DNA from: Prevotella sp.
Lineage (GTDB): Bacteria; Bacteroidota; Bacteroidia; Bacteroidales; Bacteroidaceae
Length of the DNA stretch: 57,950 nt
Direction: 5' to 3'
NCBI GenBank assembly: GCA_017470055.1
Contig: JAFUFD010000073.1
Location: 1-57,950 of the forward strand
Of the stretch, positions 1-25,863 are shown one piece after another (position 1 is the first letter of the stretch; each line of letters begins with the position of its first letter). The notes beneath the pieces are model-generated. The model did not search any database. It saw only the letters and a program-made list of their open reading frames with translations, and had not been told where the DNA came from. A program made the position numbers and the translations under genes.

Positions 1-62
1 AGGTGAACGAGACCTATAAGGGTATCGTCATCAAGAACGGTAAGAAATACATTCAGAAGTGA
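1..62 (+). CDS. 3' end of a secreted-protein gene (partial)
   Basis: The window opens inside a gene. The frame starting at base 3 reads VNETYKGIVIKNGKKYIQK and then TGA. This is the conserved C-terminal tail (a Val/Gly-rich 'YKGIVI-NGKKY' ending with basic residues) found on many secreted Prevotella and Bacteroides proteins. The large protein at 22217-25816 ends with a related tail. The body of the gene lies outside the window, so its function cannot be told. A rho-independent terminator follows at 160-190. A damaged second copy of this tail is present at 826-872. Confidence 0.75.
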   Translation, partial: VNETYKGIVIKNGKKYIQK

Positions 63-3720: not shown

Positions 3721-4836
3721 ATGAAGAAGTACTTGATATTGATGGTGGCATCTGTGGCTCTGGTAGCCTGTGCTACGAAACAGGGAGAGACGCAGAAGAC
3801 TGTGGCTCAGCAGTTGTTGGAGCGTTTAGACACCCTTCAGAAGAAGGGAATTATGTACGGACATCAGGACGATCCGATGTACGGACTGACATGGGAGTAC
3901 GAGAAAGACTCCAGTGATGTGAAAAACGTGTGTGGCGACTATCCCGCCATCATGGGCTTTGACCTTGGTGGTATCGAGATGGGCGACAAGAAGAATCTGG
4001 ACAGTGTGCCTTTTACCCGTATGACAGAGGAGATACAGAACCACTATCGTCGTGGTGGTATCGTGACGCTGAGTTGGCATCCCCGCAATCCCGTCACTAC
4101 TATTGAAGGTGGTGGATGGGCAGGGCAGAAATTCCCAGAGGGTACTGCTTGGGACATCACAGACTCTACCATTGTGAAGAAGATTCTGCCTGGTGGCGAG
4201 TTCCATGAGAAATTCGAGACATGGATGCAGCGTGTGTCCGACTTCCTCGCTACGCTGACTGATGATAACGGTCAGAAGATTCCCATTATCTTCCGTCCTT
4301 GGCATGAGAACAGTGGCTCTTGGTTCTGGTGGGGCGAGAAACTCTGTACCGTAGAGGAATACAAGGCACTATGGAACATGCTGCAGGATAAGTTGCTTGC
4401 CGATGGTTACGACAATCTGGTATGGTCGTACTCACCCGGCTGTCAGGATAACCTGACGGCAGAGCGATTGCTCGACCGTTATCCTGGTGACGACCGTGTA
4501 GACATGATCGGACTGGATGGCTACCAGTGGGTACCTGAGGAAAAGGATGCCTTTATTGCCCGTACCAAGCAGAACCTGGAAGTGCTTTGCGAGGTGGCAA
4601 AGGAGCATCACCTGATTCCTGCGCTGACAGAGACGGGTATGAAGAATATGACACAGCCTGACTGGTGGTCAACCACGCTGTTGCCTGCCGTGAAGGATTT
4701 CCCCATCAGTTACCTGCTCACCTGGCGTAACTATAAGGAGGAGTGGTTCGGACCCTCTACCTCCAAGCCCGATGCGAAGTATTTCGTGGATTTCTATAAC
4801 GATGAGAAGACATTATTCCAGAACGATATAAAATAA
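3721..4836 (+). CDS. manA: GH26 beta-mannanase lipoprotein (ManA-like)
   Basis: A 371-residue protein with a lipobox LVAC placing the lipid on Cys17. The GH26 landmarks are clear: 'GHQDD' at 47-51, 'LSWHPRNP' at 117-124, acid/base Glu196 in 'RPWHENSG', and nucleophile Glu304 in 'LTETG'. The order GH26, GH130, GPH symporter, epimerase is the same as that described for Bacteroides fragilis, where the GH26 enzyme releases mannobiose from beta-1,4-mannan. A cell-envelope exo- or endo-acting mannobiohydrolase is therefore likely. Eleven bases separate it from the GH130 gene. The symbol follows the B. fragilis locus. Confidence 0.9.
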   Translation: MKKYLILMVASVALVACATKQGETQKTVAQQLLERLDTLQKKGIMYGHQDDPMYGLTWEYEKDSSDVKNVCGDYPAIMGFDLGGIEMGDKKNLDSVPFTRMTEEIQNHYRRGGIVTLSWHPRNPVTTIEGGGWAGQKFPEGTAWDITDSTIVKKILPGGEFHEKFETWMQRVSDFLATLTDDNGQKIPIIFRPWHENSGSWFWWGEKLCTVEEYKALWNMLQDKLLADGYDNLVWSYSPGCQDNLTAERLLDRYPGDDRVDMIGLDGYQWVPEEKDAFIARTKQNLEVLCEVAKEHHLIPALTETGMKNMTQPDWWSTTLLPAVKDFPISYLLTWRNYKEEWFGPSTSKPDAKYFVDFYNDEKTLFQNDIK

Positions 4837-6014: not shown

Positions 6015-7404
6015 AACTAAATTATCAGAGAAAATAGGCTACGGCTTTGGTGATATGTCGTCCAGCATGTTCTGGAAGATATTCTCCTACTACCTGCCGT
6101 TCTTCTATAGTAATATCTTCGGACTGTCGCTGGTCGACGCTGGTGTGCTGGTACTTGTCACCCGTATCTGGGATGCTGTCAGTGATCCGATGATGGGTAT
6201 TATCTCCGACCGTACCAATACGAAATGGGGTAAGTACCGCCCCTACCTGTTGTGGGTGGCTCCGTTCTTCTCCATCTGTGGTATCTTGTTGTTTACCACC
6301 CCAGACCTTAACTATGGCGGCAAATTGATATGGGCGTATGTCACCTATATCCTGATGATGACCGTCTATACGGGTATCAACGTGCCATACGGTGCGATGC
6401 TGGGTGTGATGACAGATGACTCCAACGAGAAGACGGTGTTCTCCTCGTTCCGTATGTTCTTCGCCTATGGCGGCTCGTTCATCTCCCTGTTCCTTTGGGA
6501 ACCATTATGTGATGCGATGGGAGGCTATAACTCTCCACAGGGATGGTTTTGGGCAATGGTGATGATTGCCGTTGCCTGCTTCATCATGTTTATCCTTTGC
6601 TTCTCGATGACGAAGGAGCATCTGAAGACCATGTCAACAGTCAGTGTGGGTAGTGACTTCAAGGCACTGCTCTCTAACAAGCCTTGGTGGTTGCTGATTG
6701 GTGCGGCACTCTGCTTCAACTTGTTTAATACCGTCCGTGGTGCTACCGTGGCGTATTTCTTTCAGGACATCATCGGCTCGAATGTCAGTCTGGTGTTCTT
6801 CGGTCTGATGTTCGCTTTCTATGCAGGACTGTTCCTGGGTATTGGTGAGGTGTCCAACATGGTGGGTGTCGCCTCTTGTGTGCCTATCTCCGGACGCTTA
6901 GGTAAGAAGACCACTTTTATACTGGTGAACGTGTCACTGGTGGTGCTAAGCATTTTATTCTATTTCATCCCCTGCACGCCGACAGGCTACTGGCTGATGC
7001 TAATCTTCCAGATATTGATCTCTATCCTGACAGGTATTATGTCCCCATTGGTATGGAGTATGTATGCTGATGTGAGCGACTATGCTGAGTTGAAGTTCAG
7101 GACAGCGTCTACAGGTCTGATTTTCTCGTCCAGTTCGATGGCGCAGAAGTTTGGTGGTGCTATTGGTGGTGCCGCAGTGCTGTGGTTGCTGGATGGTTTC
7201 GGCTATATCACCGATGCCGCACAACTTGCACAAGGTATTGCCCAGCCGGCAGAGGCACTTTCCTGTCTGCGTTGGCTGATGAGTTTCATTCCTGCTTGTG
7301 TTGCCTTGCTGTCTGTCTGCATCGTGTGGTTCTACCCATTGACGACAGAGCGTATTAGTGCGATTAACGTAGAGTTGAAGAAGATTCGTTCTGTTGAGGA
7401 TTGA
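6007..7404 (+). CDS. GPH-family sugar:cation symporter for mannobiose
   Basis: A 465-residue membrane protein with about 12 hydrophobic segments, of the MelB/glycoside-pentoside-hexuronide symporter family. Typical landmarks are the N-terminal 'EKIGYGFGDMSSSMFW', 'RIWDAVSDPMMG' (Asp pair of the cation site) and 'RTNTKWGKYRPYLLW' in the first cytoplasmic loop. The ATG at 6007 was chosen over an in-frame start at 5989 because the homologous proteins begin at about 'MAKTKLSEK' and the later start leaves the short 8-base overlap normal in this operon. It should import mannobiose or Man-Glc across the inner membrane. Gene order gives the substrate. Confidence 0.88.
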   Translation: MAKTKLSEKIGYGFGDMSSSMFWKIFSYYLPFFYSNIFGLSLVDAGVLVLVTRIWDAVSDPMMGIISDRTNTKWGKYRPYLLWVAPFFSICGILLFTTPDLNYGGKLIWAYVTYILMMTVYTGINVPYGAMLGVMTDDSNEKTVFSSFRMFFAYGGSFISLFLWEPLCDAMGGYNSPQGWFWAMVMIAVACFIMFILCFSMTKEHLKTMSTVSVGSDFKALLSNKPWWLLIGAALCFNLFNTVRGATVAYFFQDIIGSNVSLVFFGLMFAFYAGLFLGIGEVSNMVGVASCVPISGRLGKKTTFILVNVSLVVLSILFYFIPCTPTGYWLMLIFQILISILTGIMSPLVWSMYADVSDYAELKFRTASTGLIFSSSSMAQKFGGAIGGAAVLWLLDGFGYITDAAQLAQGIAQPAEALSCLRWLMSFIPACVALLSVCIVWFYPLTTERISAINVELKKIRSVED

Positions 7405-20967: not shown

Positions 20968-21522
20968 ATGAAAAAGATTATGATGACTCTCGTTGCCGTT
21001 GCTATGGCAACAACAATGAACGCTCAGGCTTACATTGGTGGTGGTATCGGTTTCCAGACGACCTCACAGGGTGATGTTACTAATACTGTTATTAAGTTGA
21101 TACCTGAGGTTGGTTACAACCTTGATGCGAACTGGGCAGTAGGTATCGCCCTTGGTTATGGTCACACCAAGAACTCTGTTGAGGTGAATGGCGTTGAGAC
21201 CAGTGTTAAGGCTGACGTATTCGCAATTTCTCCATACGCTCGTTACACTTTTGCGAAGTTCGATAAGGTAAACCTTTTCGTTGATGGTGGTCTGTCTTAT
21301 ACTCACACGAAGGCTGGTAATGACAAGAACAACACTTTCGCTATTGGTTTCAAGCCAGGTGTTGCTGTTAACCTGAACGACAAACTGAGTTTCGTTGCTC
21401 ACGTTGGTTTCTTGGGCTACCAGAACAGCAAGGATGATTACGATGGCGCTGAGGCTGCTAATACCTTTGGTCTCGACCTTGATGGTTCAAGCCTGACCTT
21501 CGGTCTGTACTACAACTTCTAA
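20968..21522 (+). CDS. Small outer-membrane beta-barrel protein
   Basis: A 184-residue protein with a signal peptide (MKKIMMTLVAVAMATTMNAQ, cleavage around residues 19-21). The mature part alternates polar and hydrophobic residues in about eight strands (for example 'YIGGGIGFQ', 'AVGIALGYGH', 'ISPYARYTF', 'LFVDGGLSYTHT') and ends with an aromatic strand 'LTFGLYYNF' with terminal Phe, the outer-membrane insertion signal. It looks like the OmpA/OprF N-terminal-type porin-like barrels annotated in many Bacteroidota. No peptidoglycan-binding domain is attached. Strong promoter, A-rich leader and Lys/Asn codon choice suggest high expression. Its substrate or binding partner cannot be told. Confidence 0.85.
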   Translation: MKKIMMTLVAVAMATTMNAQAYIGGGIGFQTTSQGDVTNTVIKLIPEVGYNLDANWAVGIALGYGHTKNSVEVNGVETSVKADVFAISPYARYTFAKFDKVNLFVDGGLSYTHTKAGNDKNNTFAIGFKPGVAVNLNDKLSFVAHVGFLGYQNSKDDYDGAEAANTFGLDLDGSSLTFGLYYNF

Positions 21523-21589: not shown

Positions 21590-22025
21590 CTTTTCTTGAT
21601 AAATTCTTGACAAAAGGACTCTGATATTTCTCGTGAAATTCACCAACTCCAATCTTGGTCTCAAATACGCAAATCTCAGAGGGTTGTCGTAATTTATTGA
21701 TAATGAGGCGGTTTTGTACTTTGAAGGCTTTTCGGACCCCAAAAATACCCCTAAAAAGGTGCAAAATAGCAGGTAACTCACGATTTTTTGTAGCCTTCTG
21801 ACGGAAAAAGGTAGGCTCTTCCCGACCAATAGTAGCCTCCTCACGGTCGTGAGGAGCCTACTATCGTCCCTCGAAGGTACGTTCTTCCTCTTTTTTAGCC
21901 CTGAAAAGTCCCGTTTTCTGCCCCTAAAAATCATAGAAGCACCAAAAGTCCATACACGTTTTTCGACCAAAATCCTTGACAATAGTTGCGGTCAATTGGG
22001 ATGGTTTCCAATCTTGCGGTATAAG
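21590..22025. other. Intergenic stretch with palindrome-rich repeat, no convincing gene
   Basis: About 435 bases without a believable coding region; the frames present have no family features, no ribosome sites and run across the hairpins. From 21774 it begins 'AACTCACG', T-rich, 'GCCTTC', like the region at 25964. At 21830-21863 there is a near-perfect hairpin (16-bp arms TAGTAGCCTCCTCACG/CGTGAGGAGCCTACTA, one mismatch, two-base centre). GTAGGCTC at 21811-21818 can pair alternatively with its right arm. Confidence 0.6.
21774..21865. repeat. Palindromic repeat element, left copy
   Basis: Begins AACTCACG, contains GCCTTC and TGACGGAAAAAG, and includes the 16-bp hairpin at 21830-21863. It shares the AACTCACG start, the GCCTTC and AGCCTCC words and the 12-nt TGACGGAAAAAG with the region 25964-26140 on the other side of the two-gene unit. 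Confidence 0.5.
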
Positions 22026-22057
22026 CGAAACGCTCCCTTTTGCGGGGGAGCGTTTCG
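22026..22057 (-). terminator. Hairpin after the small-protein gene
   Basis: CGAAACGCTCCC (22026-22037) pairs perfectly over 12 bp with GGGAGCGTTTCG (22046-22057). It lies 10 bases after the stop of the 50-aa gene on the minus strand. The T-run after it is weak, so termination is likely but not certain. Confidence 0.6.
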
Positions 22058-22067
22058 ATGTTTATAT

Positions 22068-22220
22068 TTATAGGATCTCATCTGTGCCGCTATCGTAATC
22101 ATCATCAATATCGACACTTCTGACATCATCAGAACCACCGCCACTAATGATAAGAAGGGGCTGGGTCTGAATCTCAACGACCTCCATAATAGGAGTTATG
22201 TATGGATGTAGATATTTCAT
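22068..22220 (-). CDS. 50-aa small protein, coupled to the upstream secreted protein
   Basis: An ATG at 22220-22218 starts a 50-residue frame ending in TAA at 22070-22068. It shares four bases (ATGA) with the stop of the 1199-residue protein gene, so translation is probably coupled. The product starts MKYLHPYITPIMEVVEIQ, followed by a hydrophobic 'PLLIIS', a GGG, and a very acidic tail (DDVRSVDIDDDYDSGTDEIL). The pattern 'short basic N-terminus with Tyr and Pro, EV-I, hydrophobic patch, Gly/Ser, polar tail' resembles a class of short uncharacterised Prevotella and Bacteroides proteins. The GG-like step could be a processing site, which is speculation. No function can be assigned. A hairpin terminator follows. 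Confidence 0.65.
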   Translation of the reverse strand: MKYLHPYITPIMEVVEIQTQPLLIISGGGSDDVRSVDIDDDYDSGTDEIL

Positions 22221-25200
22221 TGCTTCTTCGTATTAATGTACTTCCTTCCGTTTCTGATAATAATTCCCTTCGTGTGCTCACTGACAGGTAATCCCTGTAT
22301 ATTATAGGCAGGAGAAGTCAGTGTTGCAGGCTCTATTGGTACAAGGTGAATACCCGTCACATCATCCATCTCGATGGTGAGGTTGCGCGCCTCACTGGGA
22401 ATAGACAGATAAGCACGACCACCAGGAACCTCAGTGTCGTTAGCCAATTTTCGGAAAGACAGGTCGCCAGTGTTCTTGTCTTTACTAAATACGTAGTTGC
22501 CTGCCGCAACATTGCCTGTTTCTAAATGTGGCATCAGTGCATTGTTTTCAATCGTGGGTGGAATCGATGTGGCAAGAGGGATATTCTTGGTGACCTCTGT
22601 GCCGACAGTCCCTTGCAGGAACAACCCTGTCGCAGCAGGAACAGCGTTATTAACCTTCGTCATGGTCACTTTATTACCATCCACAGTTGCGGTATATACC
22701 TTAATATTACTATTCGTAAAGTCAAGAGCATAAGGTGAAGAGAACGTTGCATAGCCCGCACTACTTATCGTCACAGGTACGTCATCCAGTTTCTGGATGT
22801 AGATTAGATCTACCCAGTTCTGGCTATTACCTGTTCCTTGAGTCGACGAAATTGTGATAGGTGTATCCTCTTCTAACGTGAAAGGACTCGTGGTATAAAT
22901 CGTAAGACTTTCAGTTGATTTTGTAGGCGTAAGAGACCCAATAGAAGTTCCACCAGCCTTGAAAGAATAAGTGGCAGGTGCGTTGGTGGATCCTATAATA
23001 GCAGTTAACTGATATTGTCCAGCAGGAAGGGTTGTCACGGTAGTGCTTCCTTGGGTTTCACTTTTAAAACCACCTGCAGTTCCCATAGAACCAAGTGTCA
23101 GTGCAAAACTCTGTCCTTGGCCTTTATCAAAAGAGGTGTTGGTCCAGCGTCCAACCCCTTCAACATCCTCACCTTCTACATAGAAAATGATATTTGTTGC
23201 AGTTAATGTGTTATAATTAATTGTGCGCTCAATATTCTTATTTGATAGTGAAAATGTGAGTTCCTCGCCATAATGTAACTGATTGCTGTTATTACTCCTT
23301 GCTACTGTCTCATAAAGATTTGTTCCTTTGAGCAGATAGCGGGGATATAGGAAACGGTAGTTCAAATCGGCAGTCTGTGCGGGGAAAACAATACTTCCGA
23401 TATTGTCACCCATATTTGAGGTTGCCGTTAAGGTGAAATCAGACATGACAGTGATGGTCAATTCATCGGAAAGCCCCGTTTTTCCGCCGTTCTCTGTGTC
23501 GTCTGTAGCCTCAGCAGTGAAGACGATATCGCCCACTAGACTTGGTGTAAAGGTGTAAGAGCAAGTTGTTGGATCAGTAGTGGAACTCTCTGCAACAACT
23601 TCATCATTTGAGTTCTTGATCACTGTTTTGGTAATGGTTGCTGTTTCTTTAGCAGTTGCATTCGCTGTGATAGTCACCTCTTTGTCGCTGTCATTCGTCA
23701 TGTCAACACCAAAGTCTCCTGTTGTGAATGCCACATCGGGAGTAGATTCATCATATTCACCTGTCTTAATTAGGTATAGATAATCAACCCAGAAAGAGCC
23801 ACCACTATTTACGGCCTCGATAGTCAGAGGTTGCTCAGTTTTAATGGTAATACCTTCTTTACTATATTCTTTGATATAGCCAGACACATCTTCTGTTGTC
23901 AATGACAAGACGGACTTGTCGCCCACCTTAAATGTGAATTGTGCAGTGCTACTGGTGTGAGTATCACCAATGGCAGCGACAAGTGTGTATTTGCCTTTTG
24001 GGATGTTAGTGACAGTAACAGGGCTTTTGACCTCTCCTGCTGCTCCGTTTGACGCAAAGCGTAACGCAAAGGCTTCACCAGAATTTTCAGTAATTTTGCT
24101 AATGTCTCTGGTCGCAATTGTTACGCCCGTAATATCCTCTCCTTCTATATAATAGGAGACACCAGTTATTGCTGTGGCTGCGTAATTGAGAGTTTCTACT
24201 TGGTTTGTACCAGTAGGAGTATATGACTTTACATAGTTGGCAGATTTATCTTGAATATTCGATGTGTTCTTTGCTGCCTCATACAACTTATTCTCACTTA
24301 AGATATACCTTGGATACTTGTAGAATACTTTATCATTAGTGTCAGAAGCACCTTCTAACAAAGTTGTGCCAAAACTATTTTTGATAGTATAAGAGTAATT
24401 GGGTTCTGCATCCAACTGGGACTGATAAGTATTCTTGTCAGCACCAGGTACTAATAAGTCAATTAGATATTGTATATCACGTTTTAGATATTCATTATGC
24501 AAATGACTACGATACAATGGTAAGAGTTGTGAGATGTATTTTTGTGTACTGGTTTCAATACCGAAATTGATTACGAAACGCCCTCCTTCAGTATCCTTTG
24601 CTGCTCCTCCAGTAACAACATTGTCAGAGAATGTACAGTCAGTTCCATTGGCATCAGTGACACCAGGGATATTAATGGTCATCTCACGGAATTGACTCTT
24701 CTTGTATCTAGGCACTTTAACCTGAAATGTCAGCGTGCCGTTGGCATAACTGACGTTTTGTATTGATGCTTTATGGTAGAGATAATAGTACTCCCACACC
24801 TCATCGGCACCAGCGACCCAGAACTGGTCTTTCTTGGCTGACGTGCCAGATTGTGAGATATCCTTCAGAAGCGTAAGTGCTGCGTTTGTCATGCCATGGG
24901 TGCCGCCCAATATCATTGATGTGCCATCGGCTGTGTCAATATAATTTTCCCTCAAGGTGTTCTCATGATCCATGAAGAAGAAACGCTCCCATGCTCCAAC
25001 AGGCTTGTTGGCAAAGGTGGTAGGCAATCCGTTTTCAGTATTAGTCCAGTAGGAAAGGAGTTTCGACTGTGGAGGGTATCCATCAGAGGCATTCTGGTAG
25101 ATATTCCAACAGACCTCGTCAGAGGCAATACCGGCTGCCATGTAATTCTTGTTGCCGTTGGGCTCGACTACGACCTTTAGCCCATAGCCAGTGATGTTCT

Positions 25201-25816
25201 CCATGATGTCGCTTTGTATGGGCAACTGTTCTCTGATGTATTGCTGTTTTTGCTCGTCCGTAGAGACACCGCTGGGCCAATTGTCGGCTACGTCGTGCTG
25301 TGCAAAACTCCATCCTGTGCGCACCATGGTCTTGGCCATATTAGGGTTGATGAAGTTATAGTTCGCATTCTCAATTTTGTAGGGCATGATGGCACTGGTG
25401 GCCGTAAACCGGCGCACGCCCCCCGTTCCATCGCTGTATGTAAGTGGCTGCCAAGAGGTGGCTGTCAGTTCTGGCTCTTGCCACGACTGTGTAGTGGTGT
25501 TGTAGGGGGCTTCGAGTAGGGTCATCGGGTCATCCAACTGACCGAAAAAATCGCTGTGAAAGACAGGGTACCCATTGAAGAAAGCCCAGTTACGGACAAA
25601 CTCCACTCGTCCCATGTCATCACTAGTGATACTAAGTGGACAAAGTTTGTTGTATTTTACCCTTGCAAACTCTGGTTTAGCATCGCTTATGGATGTTTTT
25701 ACCATAATCGTCACGATATCATAGGTCACGCCATCAATTTCCTCTGTCTGTGCCCAGATAGAGGTACTAGTGAGTAATGTGATAAGAAACAGGACAATAC
25801 TTTTCTTGCAAACCAT
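22217..25816 (-). CDS. Large secreted modular protein with C-terminal sorting-like tail
   Basis: A 1199-residue protein. ATG 25816 is chosen because it is preceded by GGAGAGAGATAAA and starts a clean signal peptide (cleavage near WAQ, residue 23); earlier in-frame ATGs lie almost on the predicted transcription start. Residues 45-330 contain 'PLSITSDDMGR' (Asp66-Asp67) and 'WSFAQHDVADNW' (His174), which resemble metal-site motifs of NodB-type polysaccharide deacetylases, but only weakly. Two related modules occupy about 500-686 and 823-1010 ('YPRY-L', 'YY/FYVEGED-GV', 'FAL-F-S-G-AGE/F-S', 'WVDLIYI'), like carbohydrate-binding modules. A domain rich in Ser/Thr links them. The end 'YNIQGLPVSEHTKGIIIRNG' plus a basic tail matches the phylum's secreted-protein tail. 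Probably a surface or secreted carbohydrate-active protein; not identified further. Confidence 0.75.
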   Translation of the reverse strand: MVCKKSIVLFLITLLTSTSIWAQTEEIDGVTYDIVTIMVKTSISDAKPEFARVKYNKLCPLSITSDDMGRVEFVRNWAFFNGYPVFHSDFFGQLDDPMTLLEAPYNTTTQSWQEPELTATSWQPLTYSDGTGGVRRFTATSAIMPYKIENANYNFINPNMAKTMVRTGWSFAQHDVADNWPSGVSTDEQKQQYIREQLPIQSDIMENITGYGLKVVVEPNGNKNYMAAGIASDEVCWNIYQNASDGYPPQSKLLSYWTNTENGLPTTFANKPVGAWERFFFMDHENTLRENYIDTADGTSMILGGTHGMTNAALTLLKDISQSGTSAKKDQFWVAGADEVWEYYYLYHKASIQNVSYANGTLTFQVKVPRYKKSQFREMTINIPGVTDANGTDCTFSDNVVTGGAAKDTEGGRFVINFGIETSTQKYISQLLPLYRSHLHNEYLKRDIQYLIDLLVPGADKNTYQSQLDAEPNYSYTIKNSFGTTLLEGASDTNDKVFYKYPRYILSENKLYEAAKNTSNIQDKSANYVKSYTPTGTNQVETLNYAATAITGVSYYIEGEDITGVTIATRDISKITENSGEAFALRFASNGAAGEVKSPVTVTNIPKGKYTLVAAIGDTHTSSTAQFTFKVGDKSVLSLTTEDVSGYIKEYSKEGITIKTEQPLTIEAVNSGGSFWVDYLYLIKTGEYDESTPDVAFTTGDFGVDMTNDSDKEVTITANATAKETATITKTVIKNSNDEVVAESSTTDPTTCSYTFTPSLVGDIVFTAEATDDTENGGKTGLSDELTITVMSDFTLTATSNMGDNIGSIVFPAQTADLNYRFLYPRYLLKGTNLYETVARSNNSNQLHYGEELTFSLSNKNIERTINYNTLTATNIIFYVEGEDVEGVGRWTNTSFDKGQGQSFALTLGSMGTAGGFKSETQGSTTVTTLPAGQYQLTAIIGSTNAPATYSFKAGGTSIGSLTPTKSTESLTIYTTSPFTLEEDTPITISSTQGTGNSQNWVDLIYIQKLDDVPVTISSAGYATFSSPYALDFTNSNIKVYTATVDGNKVTMTKVNNAVPAATGLFLQGTVGTEVTKNIPLATSIPPTIENNALMPHLETGNVAAGNYVFSKDKNTGDLSFRKLANDTEVPGGRAYLSIPSEARNLTIEMDDVTGIHLVPIEPATLTSPAYNIQGLPVSEHTKGIIIRNGRKYINTKKQ

Positions 25817-25855: not shown

Positions 25856-25863
25856 CAAAGGTA
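25856..25863 (-). promoter_or_regulatory. -7 element of the large secreted protein gene
   Basis: Read on the minus strand, TACCTTTG at 25863-25856 fits the consensus. The start of transcription would be near 25849, about 33 nt before the chosen ATG. Confidence 0.55.

Follow-up and report, generated by a model that had tools for sequence, protein, structure and literature searches.

The locus considered here raises the question of what a 50-residue open reading frame does directly behind the gene of a large secreted protein. The window, meaning the whole analyzed stretch of 57,950 nt, comes from a Prevotella genome (contig JAFUFD010000073.1 of assembly GCA_017470055.1), and both genes lie on its minus strand (Table 1). 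An earlier note, made from these letters alone, had described the 50-aa frame, an ATGA overlap with the large gene and a 12-bp hairpin, and all three are present as described. In the following, G000 is the own genome, i.e., the source of the window; other G numbers are compared genomes, L numbers are loci and C numbers are contigs.

Table 1. Positions in the window of the gene pair and of the elements discussed in the text
Feature	Position	Strand	Basis or remark
Partner gene, 1199 aa from ATG, opening MVCKKSIVLFLITLL (1213 aa from TTG at 25858)	22217..25816	-	
Last 44 codons of the partner gene; short T9SS-CTD-like tail, ending YNIQGLPVSEHTKGIIIRNGRKYINTKKQ	22220..22351	-	alignment; G178 counterpart
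Small gene, 50 aa	22068..22220	-	ATG start; YxxPxM, LLIIS, acidic tail
Tyr7-Met12 (YITPIM), lasso-leader-like YxxPx(hydrophobic) motif	22185..22202	-	family counts; available parts of PMC10368454 and PMC12710340
Leu22-Ser26 (LLIIS), LLxxS motif; proposed phosphorylation and/or cleavage region	22143..22157	-	
Acidic C-terminal part, residues 30-50; proposed core	22071..22133	-	
ATGA start/stop overlap, small-gene ATG over large-gene TGA stop	22217..22220	-	not in G178
12-bp hairpin 3' of the small gene	22026..22057	.	arms 22026-22037 and 22046-22057; kept in G178

The large protein combines a signal peptide (assigned by eye) with a Polysacc_deac_3 domain (PF15421, E 4.5e-19) and a short tail. 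A search against a collection of genome contigs returned no named homologue. The tail belongs to a group in which, by eye and with the short-CTD motifs B, D and E of Prevotella intermedia as reference, Y, G, G, I and G are invariant in 15 of 15 aligned rows, the window row being without GxY; the window tail is itself a row of the tail profile, so its own profile score is by construction. The TIGR04183 and Por_Secre_tail models match neither the window partner nor the 10 own-genome partners scanned. Partner tails resemble the short-CTD cargo of Prevotella intermedia, as presented in the available parts of PMC11969387, in Y.L.G, KG.YI and NGKK..K, in their short length and in the TGI ahead, but the usual GxY or GxN of that cargo is replaced by GII in the window tail. 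The available portion of the main text of PMC11969387 makes no mention of downstream genes, an operon or a small protein. The T9SS translocon Sov/SprA (PF14349) is matched at E 3.9e-223 in the own genome, and in 8 of the 9 genomes searched. A further tail (CTD-like) gene ends at window positions 3-59 (+), and the same end appears with equal score and place at the start of contig C43, suggesting that the contig ends may share a repeat.

Comparison with relatives offers a more direct view of the gene pair. When 398 genomes sampled from the genus were searched with the large protein at E 1e-30, eight contained a match, the own one included, and besides the own genome only G178 displayed a nearly full-length one (79% identity). 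G178 keeps the small gene as well (46 aa, 21 of 45 aligned residues identical), in agreement with the proposal of the earlier note that the small protein is genetically tied to the secreted protein. Differences between the two small genes are distributed as 17/11/30 over the codon positions (chi-square p 0.008), with an NG86 dN of 0.43. This codon-position pattern of the G178 orthologue, together with 19 profile matches in the own genome, places the frame beyond chance; the 50-aa frame is a real gene. A partial match to the large protein in G383 is also followed by a family gene, 84 nt downstream.

The junction of the two genes, however, differs between the two genomes. The large gene of G178 stops with TAA, and the small-gene ATG follows 3 nt further on; relative to G178, the aligned window sequence is one base shorter immediately ahead of the large-gene stop, which creates the ATGA overlap of the window. 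The overlap is thus not a conserved device, G178 being the only full-length orthologue found, and translational coupling through ATGA, as suggested earlier, is rejected as a feature conserved among relatives. The hairpin behind the small gene is perfect (-21.7 kcal/mol, z -6.4, equaled by 0 of 200 shuffles) and is probably the transcript end, though without a T-run. From the other side, an OMP_b-brl outer-membrane barrel gene (window 20968-21522, +) converges on the pair.

The small protein belongs to a multi-copy peptide family that has neither a name nor a curated model. A six-row family profile gives 19 matches in the own genome, and a 29-position N-terminal profile (E 0.001) finds members in 51 of 60 genus genomes that are at least 90% complete, confirming the expected recurrence in related genomes; the most members in one genome are the 22 matches of G071. 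At the order level (E 1e-4), 10 of 393 genomes, own included, contain members, and these genomes fall into 6 of 204 genera; no member occurs in the 3 listed genomes that represent other genera of the same taxonomic family. At the phylum level, only the own genome matches among 296 genomes at E 1e-5. These figures are a lower bound of the breadth of the family, since weak members drop out at the thresholds used. The 50-aa protein has no match in Pfam or NCBIfam at E 1, and none of the relatives scanned reaches a family cut-off, so that its description as an undescribed small protein holds. Literature searches returned no title recognizably devoted to the family or to its pairing with T9SS cargo, and small-protein catalogues may hold unnamed members.

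Conservation within the family is confined to a few positions. For the motif counts, one stop-containing member was set aside, which leaves 131 of 132 members, 130 of them distinct. YxxP is present in 129 of the 130, and the residue two positions after the Pro is V, I, L, M, F or C in 113 of these 129. A second motif, LLxxS (two hydrophobic residues, any two, Ser), lies 8-23 residues after the Pro in 125 of 129 members, as compared with a mean of 9.9 and a maximum of 18 in 200 shuffles. The distance from Tyr to Ser is narrowly distributed, with 20 residues in 89 members, 19 in 32 and another value in 4 (n = 125). The part beyond the motifs is variable and mostly acidic, having a median charge of -6 past residue 30 and at least three acidic residues among the last 15 in 112 of 132 members. 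In the window member, the key residues are Y7, P10, M12 and S26, with a spacing of 19; its LLIIS is an atypical form of the motif, which we count against the reading favored below. The GGG highlighted by the earlier note does not stand out in this comparison, the conserved feature being YxxP and LLxxS instead.

The surroundings of the family members display two main contexts. We placed 132 members in 34 genomes: 19 from the own genome, 27 and 85 from genus searches, and that of G178, the 85 being 24 loci plus 61 members at 60 places, a subset of the 60-genome census matches. Among these 132, a tail gene precedes 80, a predicted lipoprotein gene follows 33, and 19 are located elsewhere (4 of the latter with less than 450 nt of upstream sequence present). 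The tail context was assigned by profile in 78 cases (E < 0.05, within 450 nt) and by hand for the window and G178; the family profile itself does not demand a tail gene upstream. In the own genome, 17 of 19 members are found behind a tail gene, a share that is partly by construction because the tail profile was built from those partners, so that its very small nominal probability is not to be read literally; this does not apply to the 63 of 113 members in the same position elsewhere. The gap from tail gene to member ranges from -12 to 389 nt (n = 80) and is 9-21 nt in 46 of the 80. Otherwise, the partners are unrelated, comprising a C10 peptidase, an LRR protein, a phosphoesterase and a deacetylase. 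Seen from the cargo side, one or two members follow 15 of 47 own-genome tail genes (48 profile matches, less one that lies at the window-contig edge), and the 32 genes without a member count against the favored reading.

The lipoprotein context is based on the lipobox letter pattern only; one of the 33 calls (L090, with a 129-aa ORF) is doubtful, and the remaining 32 are each followed by an ORF of 250 aa or more. An identification of these proteins as fimbrillins is unsupported, 8 of 8 scanned being without a Pfam match at E 0.001. In genome G010, the searches for SprA and for tails are both without a match, yet 7 members are present, of which 5 precede predicted lipoprotein genes and 2 lie elsewhere. 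Strict dependence on T9SS is therefore ruled out, and the family appears to be associated with surface proteins and not with T9SS as such. The tie of the small protein to this particular secreted protein is retained, but not its exclusiveness, as members adjoin T9SS-type cargo and predicted lipoproteins generally. At L103, L112, L190 and L195, the genes preceding the members have a different kind of C-terminus (RPVFEF, RPVFKF or RPFLAF), another possible surface-protein context. At L189 (G132), the member at 24056-24133 behind a tail gene has no ATG start and is possibly decaying or uses another start.

The conserved front of the family bears a likeness to the leaders of lasso precursors. YxxP is listed as a characterized recognition motif of lasso RREs in the available part of PMC12710340. 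According to the parts of PMC10368454 available, the Bsf precursor carries YxxPxL at -17 to -12 and Ile at -2, and an HPr-like kinase, with assistance from a PqqD-type RRE, phosphorylates Ser3 of BsfA. A Tyr at -17 and a phospho-Ser at 3 amount to a Tyr-to-Ser spacing of 19, as in the family here. What the family shares with Bsf (BsfA/BsfK/BsfB1) and NF033524 is a YxxPx-hydrophobic leader, hydrophobic residues ahead of a Ser, and that Ser 19(-20) residues after the Tyr. Were the Ser of LLxxS position +3, position -2 would be L, I, M or V in 81, 24, 15 and 4 of 125 members, respectively. Single changes of Tyr, Pro or Leu in BsfA still allowed leader removal (PMC10368454, same parts), which we count against the favored reading. 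Matches to NF033524 (paeninodin family) stay below its cut-off, at E 0.043 for one of six small proteins and, as the best match, at E 0.017 (14.8 of 27 bits) for the member of G1042; none of 23 members passes the curated lasso precursor models. The two sub-threshold matches carry no weight by themselves, and the failure to reach the cut-off counts against the favored reading. An 8-kb stretch of a Spirochaetales MAG (L120) holds two lasso-like precursors, at 3843-3879 and 6750-6956 (MKKVYPKPEMKSWGDIMDITRGG... and MKKSYVAPAMQEWGDVVKLTQWG...), together with a PqqD-like gene. The second precursor scores no better than E 0.02 with the family profile, and the locus is not counted as evidence here.

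Genes for candidate enzymes are found in the same genomes. In six of six genus loci (G000, G003, G010, G012, G071, G132), a PqqD gene stands beside kinase-like and S24/S26-like peptidase genes, followed by an ABC transporter in two (G000, G071). In the own genome, the cluster occupies C114:56067-59248, so that it and the window are on different contigs. The earlier note had remarked that no processing gene is adjacent to the small gene; none is indeed present among the neighbors scanned, and the candidates, i.e., PqqD, HPr-type kinase, S24/S26-like peptidase and ABC transporter, are those of the other contig. PF05402 (PqqD) is matched in 8 of 8 genus genomes searched, which were picked among family carriers and hence provide no test of co-occurrence; its match in 3 of 14 control genomes, one of them a Bacteroides, counts against the favored reading. 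The best PDB match of the PqqD profile is TfuB1 (6jx3, E 3.1e-4), which we take to be a lasso RRE.

The kinase sequences have weak direct family matches, and all seven keep H136, G154, G156, K157, S158, D176 and D177; in 4 of the 7, Ala replaces the first Gly of the loop (151). Their His-to-loop spacing is that of BsfK, as given in the available parts of PMC10368454, while the Asp pair lies two residues further on. The HPr-rel-A system (TIGR04352 kinase, TIGR04353 PqqD_rel_X) likewise places an HPr-type kinase next to a PqqD-type protein, but the proteins described here match below the curated cut-offs. In the peptidase, VxHRI and GDGN are present in 7 of 7 sequences and GxSMxP in the 6 complete rows, a set that we read as the Ser-His signal-peptidase type. 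The peptidase of G1042 passes the Pfam S24 cut-off (24.8 vs 23.3 bits), with weak matches elsewhere. The weakness of the kinase matches and of most peptidase matches counts against the favored reading, as does the presence of the adjacent ABC transporter in only two of the six genus clusters.

On the level of whole genomes, the likeness to Bsf, within the available parts of PMC10368454, extends to a PqqD-type RRE, the HPr-type kinase residues, an ABC transporter in some genomes and a nucleotidyltransferase gene, represented here by PF14907 at two loci outside the genus and likened to bsfN by gene kind, not by Pfam. Unlike Bsf, the precursors are many, dispersed and located beside surface-protein genes, the peptidase is S24/S26-like and the precursor matches remain below the NF033524 cut-off. 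Neither a lasso cyclase nor a transglutaminase-type protease is present among the proteins scanned at the G000, G003, G071 and G1042 loci. The literature searched describes no substrate for the PqqD-kinase-peptidase cluster of these bacteria, and in the available portion of PMC10352776, a RiPP survey of Bacteroidales, PqqD occurs only once, in the reference list.

A physical association of precursor and enzyme genes is seen outside the genus. In G1042, from another taxonomic family, the only member at E 1e-4 lies between the peptidase gene and the genes for PqqD and the ABC transporter. The same cluster includes the kinase gene and encodes a PF14907 nucleotidyltransferase, a kind of enzyme whose genes accompany lasso clusters as accessories (PMC10368454, PMC7533575, available parts). 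A member would fall within the cluster by position alone with a probability near 7e-4, which becomes 0.006 when all eight outside-genus genomes with matches are taken into account; both values are post hoc. Against the link, LLAGP stands in place of LLxxS in this member, the Ser being absent. Downstream of the member come a lipoprotein gene of its own and a gene of the PDDEXK_2 transposase type, and between the member and the peptidase gene lies a terminator-like hairpin with a T-run; the member may thus have arrived as an inserted unit and not be part of an operon. In G857, the distance between a member and the PqqD and PF14907 genes is 5.7 kb. Among the wide loci of the other outside-genus genomes (L261-L271), those of G857 alone show cluster genes, and those of G746, G986, G773 and G915 (L261-L270) show none.

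Taken together, these features incline us, by a slight balance of probability, to regard the small protein as a precursor peptide of an apparently cyclase-less, lasso-leader-like system that is paired with surface proteins. The comparison of the earlier note with leader-processed peptides would then have been a good guess from the sequence, while the roles it proposed as partner, chaperone or signal stay hypothetical. We infer recognition, phosphorylation, cleavage, export and the final role of the peptide as follows. The conserved YxxPx-hydrophobic front would serve as a tag by which the PqqD-type protein presents the precursor. A lasso-type (HPr-kinase-like) kinase would phosphorylate the Ser of LLxxS, the small S24/S26-like peptidase would cut the precursor near LLxxS, and the ABC transporter, where present, would carry the product out. 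Each precursor would be co-expressed with one surface protein, encoded in most cases by a T9SS-type cargo gene immediately upstream and otherwise by a predicted lipoprotein gene immediately downstream. Once processed, the acidic peptide probably works together with its paired surface protein, acts on it or reports that it is being produced.

A bolder version of this proposal, which we hold to be possible rather than probable, is a genome-wide cyclase-less relative of lasso systems, in which one RRE/kinase/peptidase set would serve up to about 20 dispersed precursors, their phosphopeptides acting as secretion companions or reporters. Joining the uncurated small genes with the PqqD-kinase-peptidase cluster, for which the literature searched gives no substrate, yields a testable proposal for both. 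If it is true, recognition and kinase chemistry of the lasso type would also operate in a cyclase-free system with many substrates, and type IX secretion would gain a peptide step. The YxxP-LLxxS motif is a direct way to find further members.

The pairing itself could also be explained without any RRE, if the small protein were an escort or quality-control factor that binds either the surface protein, while nascent or still cytoplasmic, or the secretion machinery, with the likeness of YxxP to lasso leaders arising by convergence. The usual arrangement of one small gene per surface-protein gene, on the same strand and mostly at the short gap given above, fits such a role, as do the apparent absence of a signal peptide from the small protein (by eye) and the retention of the pair in G178. 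However, the same conserved part accompanies cargo as unrelated as a C10 peptidase and an LRR protein, and it also precedes lipoproteins, including those of G010 with its missing SprA and tail matches. This pattern is better explained by a partner common to all members, for example the PqqD protein, and the own-genome tail genes devoid of a member speak against an escort as well. We therefore regard this explanation as unlikely, though deserving of serious consideration.

A second alternative keeps the processed peptide but not the kinase cluster: the product would be an exported signal or bacteriocin-like peptide, cut at LLxxS by another peptidase or transporter. A conserved front joined to a variable, mostly acidic tail and the high copy number, reaching its maximum in G071, are what such a family would display. 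The Bacteroidales double-glycine-leader peptides (bacteroidetocins, available part of PMC6671954) are also encoded by small precursor-like genes, but no double-Gly cleavage motif is found in the members here and no NCBIfam GG-leader model matches them, which rules out a double-Gly leader. Moreover, no transporter was recognized by eye among the nearest neighbors examined. This makes an exported product of that kind rather improbable.

The start regions of the genes offer an argument for a third alternative, in which translation of the small frame itself, not its product, would tune the neighboring surface gene. An SD-like GGAGG or GAGGA precedes 24 of the 80 members behind tail genes, compared with 2 of 52 other members (p 1e-4) and 9 of 175 background ORFs (p 2e-7). 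The exact GGAGGAC is found before 17 of the 80, at 6-8 nt from the ATG in the examples examined; L031, L037, L176 and L213 represent SD-like sites. Since ribosomes of Bacteroidia fail to recognize SD (available part of PMC9976891), these sites behind T9SS-type cargo possibly reflect translational regulation in organisms that otherwise make little use of SD. For a regulatory frame, however, the conservation of the Tyr, Pro and Ser residues and the location of the small gene downstream of the cargo gene are unexpected, and 56 of the 80 members, as well as the window member, have no SD. We thus give this explanation little credence. A chance ORF, suggested by the shortness of the frame and by its divergence being faster than that of its partner, is contradicted by family, context and codon pattern and can be practically dismissed.

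Two repeats were observed beside small genes. At L031, a 21-bp unit, GCCTCCTCACGGAAAATACCA, occurs in tandem in 9.5 copies (331-529) behind a small gene. Letters resembling this unit, AGCCTCCTCACG, form a 17-nt inverted repeat at window 21829-21864, beside the gene pair.
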